Source of the DNA: Carboxylicivirga sediminis
GTDB taxonomy: Bacteria; Bacteroidota; Bacteroidia; Bacteroidales; Marinilabiliaceae
Direction: 5' to 3'
Assembly (NCBI RefSeq): GCF_018156225.1
Contig: NZ_JAGTAR010000003.1
Coordinates: 62,001-126,000, forward strand
DNA length: 64,000 nt
The notes beneath the pieces are model-generated. The model saw only the letters and a program-made list of their open reading frames with translations, was not told where the DNA came from and made no database searches. The translations under genes were made by a program, and so were the position numbers. Positions 8,433 through 9,750 of the stretch are shown here, in pieces (position 1 is the stretch's first letter; every line of letters starts with the position of its first letter).

Positions 8433-8603
8433 ATGACTGAATCTGGCCAGACAGGACCATACATTTCTATCAGTCCTTACGCAACTTACCCAACAGCCAA
8501 TCATCAATTGGCTGTATCACCTGTACAACATTCACCAACAAACATCTTAAGGCCCGGCAAAACCCTTGTAAAGTATGCCTGGCCTGTATTTTCTGAACAA
8601 TAG
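8433..8603 (+). CDS. Possible 56-residue small protein
   Basis: An ATG frame of 57 codons ending TAG at 8601-8603. The product is polar and rich in Pro, Thr, Tyr and Ser, beginning MTESGQTGPYISISPYATYP, with no membrane segment or known motif. It precedes the palindrome array and the DUF6261-like gene on the same strand. It could be a real small gene of this locus, a leader peptide, or chance. The A-rich stretch before the ATG is compatible with weak Bacteroidota ribosome binding. I do not recognise it. Confidence 0.3.
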   Translation: MTESGQTGPYISISPYATYPTANHQLAVSPVQHSPTNILRPGKTLVKYAWPVFSEQ

Positions 8604-8648
8604 CAGAAGTATAAAAGCACAAGGGCTTACTGCCGGCAGGTTCAACAT

Positions 8649-8866
8649 TCCCACCATGGGAAAATGTACTTTTTCCGCCAGACAGCCTTTCCTACCGTAG
8701 GAAAACCTGTTTTGCACGCCAGAGAAGCTATCCCACCATAGGATGTAATAGCATTTACGCCAGTCACTCTTTCCCATGGTAGGAAAGGCTGTCTTTTCAA
8801 AAAAACATGGTTTCCCATCATGGGATTAGGCATTATTTCAGGCAGGCACAATTTCCTGTGGCAGGA
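8649..8866. repeat. Six 13-bp dyads at exact 41-bp period
   Basis: Dyads start at 8649, 8690, 8731, 8772, 8813 and 8854. Units 1-6 read TCCCACCATGGGA, TCCTACCGTAGGA, TCCCACCATAGGA, TCCCATGGTAGGA, TCCCATCATGGGA and TCCTGTGGCAGGA. Four of the six have perfect 5-bp arms, using three different arm sequences with matching changes on both sides. The 28-bp spacers are diverged but share a TTT-N-CGCCAG-like core in several copies. The period is not a multiple of 3, so a coding repeat is excluded. The array lies 100 bp before the DUF6261-like gene, in its probable leader or regulatory region. Confidence 0.9.
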
Positions 8867-8966
8867 TCGACGGATTTCTGCAAAGCCTAATTAAAGTTGC
8901 TTTTACACATAGCAAATCACTAATCAGTAAATAACAATATTCTTTATCACCAATAACTTAAATCTT

Positions 8967-9689
8967 ATGCTAATAGAAAAAGTCCTTAAACATATGCGGG
9001 TTGCCGATACCGTTCATTTAGGAAATGTAATACTGGATGAGCTTGAGAAAACAACCATTGAAGATGCATATATTACCGCCATAAAAAGCGAAATGAGCAC
9101 CATCTGCATTGGTTTGGCCGGCGCAGTTAACGATACAAAAGTGCTGTCGATGCTTGAAAAATACGATGCACTGCGCGATAACACCTATCGCTCATTACTA
9201 TACCTCAACAAAGGTTTCCTACTGCATCCCGATGCAAAAATACGAGCAGCTGCCAGTGAAGTACAGCAGGTACTTGATAAATATGGCTTTAGCCTGGTTA
9301 ACCACAACTATGCATCCGAATCCACCCTAATAGATGCCTTTATCAGGGATATGAAGATGCCATTGATAGCACCCAATGTAACGGTTTTGCCTGGTTTATC
9401 AGCAATATTGAGTCAGTTGCAAACCGACCAGGACCTGTTTAAAAGTGCCGAGAGAAGCTGGCACGAGGCACGCGCCGAAGACGGCAAAACCCTTAATGCT
9501 ACAGCCCTTAAGCACGAGCTGATGAAGGTGATAAATGACAAACTGGTGCTTTACCTGCGAGCCATGGCACAGCTCAATCCGGCCACCTTTGAGGCCTTAA
9601 GTAATAATATCTCCATGCACATCAGAAGGGCCAATGAGCTGGTTAAAAGGCGTAGCAGCAGTGAAGAGGAGGTAGAAATTGGTAATTAA
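8967..9689 (+). CDS. DUF6261-like protein of unknown function
   Basis: A 240-residue, mostly helical protein without signal peptide or membrane segment, so likely cytosolic. It resembles the Bacteroidota DUF6261 family in overall pattern; this is from memory, without a search. There are no recognisable catalytic motifs. The C-terminus is charged (RRANELVKRRSSSEEEVE). It is a stand-alone gene closed by a terminator, with the 41-bp dyad array in front of it. The array may control this gene or be bound by its product; both are speculation. Confidence 0.75.
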   Translation: MLIEKVLKHMRVADTVHLGNVILDELEKTTIEDAYITAIKSEMSTICIGLAGAVNDTKVLSMLEKYDALRDNTYRSLLYLNKGFLLHPDAKIRAAASEVQQVLDKYGFSLVNHNYASESTLIDAFIRDMKMPLIAPNVTVLPGLSAILSQLQTDQDLFKSAERSWHEARAEDGKTLNATALKHELMKVINDKLVLYLRAMAQLNPATFEALSNNISMHIRRANELVKRRSSSEEEVEIGN

Positions 9690-9719
9690 TTATTCATCCG
9701 GTTGATAAAGGATTATTTA

Positions 9720-9750
9720 GGGTGCCGTTTAGTGGCACCCTTTTCTTTTA
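9720..9750 (+). terminator. Terminator after the DUF6261-like gene
   Basis: GGGTGCC (9720-9726) pairs with GGCACCC (9734-9740), 7-nt loop, followed by TTTTCTTTT. It sits between convergent genes. Confidence 0.85.

Follow-up and report, generated by a model that had tools for sequence, protein, structure and literature searches.

Six short palindromes stand at a strict 41-bp interval ahead of a gene of the DUF6261 family in a stretch of 64,000 nucleotides from Carboxylicivirga sediminis, referred to here as the window (contig C67). The question they raise is whether this row is a peculiarity of one locus or one half of a recurring partnership between repeated DNA and a protein. The features concerned are the following, those of the array carrying no strand unless one is given.

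8649-8866: array in which 13-bp dyads (TCCYRYNRYRGGA) recur six times, exactly every 41 bp, from the pattern scan
8649-8661, 8690-8702, 8731-8743, 8772-8784, 8813-8825 and 8854-8866: the individual dyads
8646-8877: block that recurs, at 76% over 232 bp, in an array on contig C54 of this genome
8770-8825, minus strand: units 4-5, the reverse complement of units 1-2 (8649-8704) at 78%
8867-8966, plus strand: 100-bp gap separating the array from the start codon, presumed to be the leader or promoter region
8967-9689, plus strand: DUF6261 gene of 240 amino acids, matching PF19775 and under purifying selection in comparison with C. mesophila

A pattern scan bore out the initial annotation on the exact 41-bp period and the starts of the six dyads, and TRF placed a row of period 41 over 8649-8743. 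The motif TCCYRYNRYRGGA occurs six times in the window, always inside the array, against 0.17 occurrences expected by chance, and none of 100 shuffles of the 64-kb window reached six. All six of the palindromes described are present, but only four have perfect 5-bp arms, the dyads at 8731 and 8772 each carrying a C/A mismatch. The proposal that the arms change together did not reach significance, either in the six window units (one-sided Fisher test on the three pairs of arm positions, p 0.40, 0.17 and 0.95) or in the 18 complete units of this genome's three arrays (p 0.28, 0.41 and 0.97); in a similar Streptococcus array of 16 units, one of the three pairs was nominally significant (p 0.025, 0.35 and 0.66). 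The spacers, which had been regarded as merely decayed, are identical to those of the C54 array at 101/140 positions, the dyads at 65/78, and with units 4-5 inverting units 1-2 the window array is a partly inverted repeat of itself. Preferential conservation of the dyads had also been proposed, and on the recent timescale it was not seen in comparison with the close relative C. mesophila JCM 18290 (G011). Substitutions since the split number 5/78 in the dyads and 7/140 in the spacers, conservation is about that of other non-coding DNA nearby, and the loss of one base in the C. mesophila counterpart makes the first step 40 bp. The 56-codon frame at 8433 could not be upheld as part of the module, since it lies outside the array and differs from C. 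mesophila by three synonymous and three non-synonymous codon changes, too few to call. A promoter-like site was sought between array and start codon at 8867-8966 and none was found, and the sole Rfam match, a sub-threshold MicA at 9675-9744, was taken as chance.

The identity of the adjoining gene was confirmed. The window protein matches PF19775 (DUF6261) with an E-value of 8.1e-20 and 71.7 bits against a cut-off of 27, the only Pfam family to pass its cut-off, and the gene has been under purifying selection since its recent divergence from C. mesophila, with 42 synonymous and 20 non-synonymous codon differences. Most DUF6261 proteins are acidic (median pI 5.45, n=93), and family searches detected no DNA-binding family in those scanned. 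Scans of three of the proteins turned up neither a transposase nor a nuclease family, and known toxin families, including ToxN, CptN and TenpN, were unmatched in Pfam, NCBIfam and PADLOC. PADLOC returned one weak LeoA match (E 1.1e-4) for a Mediterranea DUF6261 protein, taken as helical-region similarity, and none for the window protein. A search of solved structures gave a best E-value of 0.044, and an AlphaFold2 model built from four sequences was unusable (mean pLDDT 44.5). The one paper found to name DUF6261 does so for a Streptococcus oralis gene in which a variant is listed (PMC10376253); the literature searched, which was covered in part, described neither a function nor an array partner for PF19775, and gave no account of such 41-bp or phased tandem-repeat arrays.

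The family is patchy and multi-copy. It was found in 20/198 genomes of the order, with up to 18 copies scored per genome, in 12/395 genomes of the phylum and in 0/14 named controls. Carriage by plasmids, phages or viruses was considered and rejected: the window array had no match in the plasmid and phage collections, the window protein none in the plasmid collection, one other DUF6261 protein none in either plasmids or phages, and neither the array motif nor two DUF6261 proteins matched viral contigs.

The link between array and gene proved far wider than the window locus. It was measured by a lag test, in which the lag between 25 and 70 giving the best self-repetition was determined in the 700-bp region upstream of each gene, for DUF6261 genes sampled at the level of genus, order, class and phylum and for those of four additional genomes, including a Streptococcus. 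The loci taken were the top-scoring matches, and orthologues are present in the genus set. The same-genus set comprised the 70 best of 78 matches, of which 69 genes were located and 65 had 400 bp upstream; the order-level set, the best 28 of 114 matches outside this genome; and the four further genomes, which had been found by the motif, the best 30 of 87 matches, 29 of them with 400 bp upstream. A hold-out set covering further classes and families within the phylum supplied 17 of 18 new loci (one gene was not located), one of these from a genome already used.

A lag of 41 or 42 was best in 109/139 DUF6261 upstream regions, hold-out included: 46/65 in the genus, 24/28 in the order, 23/29 in the four motif-found genomes and 16/17 in the hold-out. 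The remaining 30/139 had another best lag. The same lags were best in 17/138 downstream flanks, 26/500 random windows and 7/120 control windows at ABC genes. TRF reported arrays of period 36-46 upstream of 21/65 same-genus genes, 19/28 order-level genes and 23/30 genes of the motif-found genomes (6/9 in Streptococcus), and upstream of 63/127 DUF6261 genes overall; among the controls, 377,285 bp of random DNA from the genus contained a single poor row, and the 100,119 bp around 30 ABC-gene loci contained none. That row (L163:6672-6940, genome G002) is a 63-bp tandem repeat that was also scored at 42 bp. DUF6261 in very diverse bacteria thus usually adjoins an array of fixed period and variable sequence.

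No other gene shares this position. Among 1069 frames at 127 DUF6261 loci, no neighbour family recurred at more than four loci, and the largest clusters were frames running through the arrays themselves. At six loci (L096, L102, L106, L115, L126 and L142) an array lies downstream and none upstream, so the array need not belong to a leader RNA. These loci, together with L123, are ones where an array was seen downstream and none was detected or available upstream, and several encode a shorter form of the protein of about 217 amino acids.

A search of the whole collection with the dyad motif only, which had been suggested as a way to find co-occurrence with DUF6261, retrieved 25 stretches in 18 genomes. 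Four of the seven motif-found genomes checked carry DUF6261: Streptococcus HF-1907 (12 matches), Mediterranea (21), Parabacteroides (52) and Chryseobacterium (2). The other three, the Loclat MAG, Lederbergia and Myxacorys, gave no match. Both motif-found arrays of Mediterranea lie directly upstream of DUF6261 genes, but those of Streptococcus, Parabacteroides and Chryseobacterium have no DUF6261 gene within the few flanking kilobases sampled. Motif matches also lay in Achromobacter, Bordetella, Bradyrhizobium and Eubacterium, outside the seven genomes checked. In Achromobacter, L053, L054 and six further loci have dyad pairs flanked by GACCTTCCC/GGGAAGGTC; the Achromobacter and Bordetella matches were set aside because their context resembles tandem CueR/MerR-type boxes. 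The Parabacteroides genome (G330, MAG BRZ_ER__bin5, 3.3 Mb) represents an extreme expansion of the family, and arrays of 40-42 bp lie upstream of most of the 10 loci sampled among its 52. In Loclat_bin-17204, an uncultured delta proteobacterium, six to nine TCC..GGA dyads at 40-42-bp steps occur on five contigs (L058, L069, L070, L072 and L073).

Two outcomes named beforehand as damaging to the module were partly encountered, as arrays do occur away from DUF6261 genes, and a strict two-unit dyad pattern had no match in 12/13 other genus members or in the 294 remaining genomes sampled from the order. The module withstands this, because most of the same-genus DUF6261 genes tested (the 46/65 above) have another array of the same period.

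What these arrays share is length. The period of the 63 upstream TRF arrays is 41 in 31 cases, 42 in 29, 40 in two and 43 in one, and 41-42 bp corresponds to about four helical turns. From locus to locus the units share no sequence relationship. Where DUF6261 proteins are less than 25% identical, the similarity of their arrays hardly exceeds the shuffled null, and it is modest even at 40-60% protein identity, where 9/24 pairs exceed the 95% point of the null; specificity of recognition is thus not evident from these pairs. Inside one genome, array sequences vary as much as the DUF6261 paralogues do.

The anatomy of the unit suggests double-stranded DNA. The unit consensus is reverse-complement symmetric at p<=0.05 in 29/63 arrays, the symmetric bases lying mostly 2-7 bp from the dyad centres. 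On the gene strand, mismatches within the symmetric arms are G/T in 47 cases and A/C in 46, compensated cells number five, and sense RNA has the higher stability in 27/63 arrays; this balance of mismatches, with few compensated cells and no advantage of the sense strand, gives no sign of RNA structure. RNA hairpins, the second possibility offered in the initial annotation, were rejected as the main reading on these grounds. Fourier analysis of conservation within the units of 29 arrays, a set that excludes the window array, found four cycles per unit to be the strongest component (power 0.122 vs 0.049, p 0.0005), and under a 3-bp block null it was the sole survivor among ten components (0.122 vs 0.064, p 0.001), although the signal is uneven among arrays, ranging from 0.00 to 0.52. 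Four cycles per unit is one per turn. Taken together, the fixed period, the symmetry of the dyads, the absence of strand bias and the conservation once per turn speak for a protein lying along one face of the duplex, and the earlier suggestion of a site on one helix face is supported, as far as sequence can tell, by the 41/42 period and the four conserved blocks per unit.

Fixed repeat length with free sequence beside DUF6261 genes points to a protein-on-DNA system that appears to be undescribed. With a probability of roughly 0.5, the window array would be the DNA half of a module in which a DUF6261 gene and its adjoining tandem array of about four-turn units belong together, the array being bound and regulatory. 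Under this explanation the arrays would work in duplex form, their half-sites facing the same side of the helix at intervals of roughly one turn, and TCCYR/YRGGA would be the candidate half-sites in the window. Several copies of the DUF6261 product, or of a complex containing it, may bind the array; as DUF6261 is the sole gene that accompanies the arrays, it or such a complex is the likely binder. Bound arrays would most likely regulate the adjoining DUF6261 gene, and related arrays elsewhere in the genome could be further sites marked in trans, in a centromere- or multi-operator-like manner. Several findings count against this explanation, namely the acidity of the proteins, the lack of a recognised DNA-binding family, the failed structure model, the low similarity between arrays of dissimilar proteins, the uneven four-cycle signal, the 30/139 upstream regions with another best lag, the Loclat arrays in a genome where DUF6261 found no match, and the position of one related array away from promoters. 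A Bacteroidetes-type promoter motif was present in full between array and gene at 3 of 39 loci, and its -7 element alone at 7. Control of the own gene combined with action at related arrays is the favoured guess, and a selfish satellite comes next.

The related arrays bear on both. In the same genome, dyads of the window type recur on contigs C54 and C122 (71% over 95 bp for the latter), each array with six complete units at 41 bp and C122 with a decayed seventh. C. mesophila has the window and C122 arrays and lacks the C54 array. Among six arrays queried, those of C67 (relatives C54 and C122), C77 (relative C90) and C45 (relative C50) have same-genome relatives away from DUF6261, the C64 array has a weak relative in C. 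mesophila only, and the C39 and C44 arrays have none in this genome at E 0.01. No DUF6261 gene lies on the contigs of the C54, C122, C90 and C50 arrays; those of C90 and C50 sit no more than 600 bp from where their contigs stop, and a gene may follow past the gap. The C122 array lies between convergent genes. Similarity between C67 and C54 stops at the array edges, and that between C77 and C90 extends about 55-65 bp beyond the array on one side. Unit number also differs from C. mesophila, with 5.0 against 10.9 copies at C64 and seven, one of them decayed, against five at C122. On the evidence of these comparisons, arrays change by whole units and are copied elsewhere. Additionally, two contigs with related arrays (L115:2888-3126 and L243:1946-2184) share a terminal stretch of 97.5% identity, where a repeat probably interrupted the assembly, and an intergenic many-unit 42-bp array of C. 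mesophila (L246:1286-1969, G011:C22) lies upstream of a gltX-like gene, where a frame encoding a 14-residue repeat is probably a by-product.

Such copying (C67 to C54 at 76%, C77 to C90 at 93%, C45 to C50 at 76%) would be expected if DUF6261 were the helper of a selfish satellite, making, expanding or spreading arrays that have no regulatory use for the cell, much as RAYT transposases are thought to make or spread REPs. This account is unlikely, though it fares best among the rivals, and the change of unit number between sister species and the patchy, multi-copy distribution of the family would suit it. Against it stand the three scanned proteins, none with a transposase or nuclease family, and the copied arrays, at which no target duplication was seen; the C54 site measures 88 bp in C. 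mesophila against 484 bp including the array here and is not a clean empty site. Nor would a neutral satellite be expected to show one conserved block per turn.

Alternatively, a transcribed repeat RNA might restrain the DUF6261 product in the style of type III toxin-antitoxin systems. On each strand the window array is predicted to fold more stably than its shuffled versions (z -5.0 and -5.9), as palindromic arrays in general do, and it contains two terminator-like sites where 0.6 are expected. The layout of tandem repeats directly upstream of a single gene resembles type III loci, whose repeats vary greatly in sequence and length in the part of PMC4627078 that describes them. This rival is nevertheless improbable given the strand evidence above, a period that stays at 41/42 across very diverse sequences, the six downstream arrays, the related arrays on contigs where no DUF6261 gene was found, and the unmatched toxin families.

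Least probable of all is that the arrays are sites of a widespread, unrelated host protein near which DUF6261 genes are merely tolerated or attracted: the 41/42-bp array of the same dyad type in the Loclat MAG and the arrays away from DUF6261 in Streptococcus, Parabacteroides and Chryseobacterium would agree with it, but such arrays are rare in random same-genus DNA, and a single host protein would not explain why array variety equals paralogue variety within a genome.

A bolder reading, doubtful as it is, can also be entertained. DUF6261 proteins may be DNA rulers, sequence-specific or nearly sequence-independent, that build and hold bacterial satellites, each paralogue owning a satellite whose monomer length is set by the protein at four turns while its sequence turns over freely, with dozens of such pairs per chromosome. 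Eukaryotic centromere satellites, which keep a length set by the nucleosome, offer an analogy. A candidate DNA target accompanies each DUF6261 gene, which gives a family without a known function a physical partner open to direct testing. Bacterial repeats seldom combine a constant unit length with such freedom of sequence, and many pairs per genome would be possible. If DUF6261 binds its own array, a new kind of DNA-organising or regulatory system would be at hand; otherwise some other ruler would have to be sought for the arrays.

Among known systems, the closest in DNA anatomy is sopC (parS_F) of the F plasmid, which, in the passages of PMC6238139 and PMC9178275 devoted to it, comprises twelve repeats of 43 bp; each contains an inverted repeat to which dimeric SopB/ParB, the product of an adjoining gene, binds. 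DUF6261 arrays likewise have units of about four turns, with dyads in the window array and symmetric units in 29/63. In contrast to sopC, DUF6261 has no ParB family match, no ParB-type protein is encoded beside the window array, and no ParA/ParB gene recurs beside DUF6261 at 127 loci whose neighbours were not named by Pfam; DUF6261 modules also exist in many copies on the chromosome, and the array sequence differs from copy to copy. Type III toxin-antitoxin systems (ToxIN, CptIN and TenpIN) are closest in layout, with varying repeats upstream of one gene in the account excerpted from PMC4627078, whereas DUF6261 arrays have no RNA-like strand bias, a nearly fixed period and reverse-complement symmetric units, occur also downstream or alone, and accompany a different protein family. 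REPtrons (REP/RAYT), as outlined in the relevant section of PMC3733652, combine palindromes beside a gene with dispersed related copies, to which the C54, C122, C90 and C50 arrays compare; DUF6261 is not an HUH tyrosine transposase by the family searches made, and its units stand in long, strictly spaced arrays. CRISPR shares short palindromic units and regular spacing, but it needs unrelated spacers, and the initial annotation rightly set it aside: the conserved unit here is 13 bp, the window spacers are interrelated and partly inverted copies, and no Cas gene is among the recurrent neighbours at 127 loci. Thus sopC, the type III systems and the REPtrons each fail a defining feature tested for the DUF6261 arrays.
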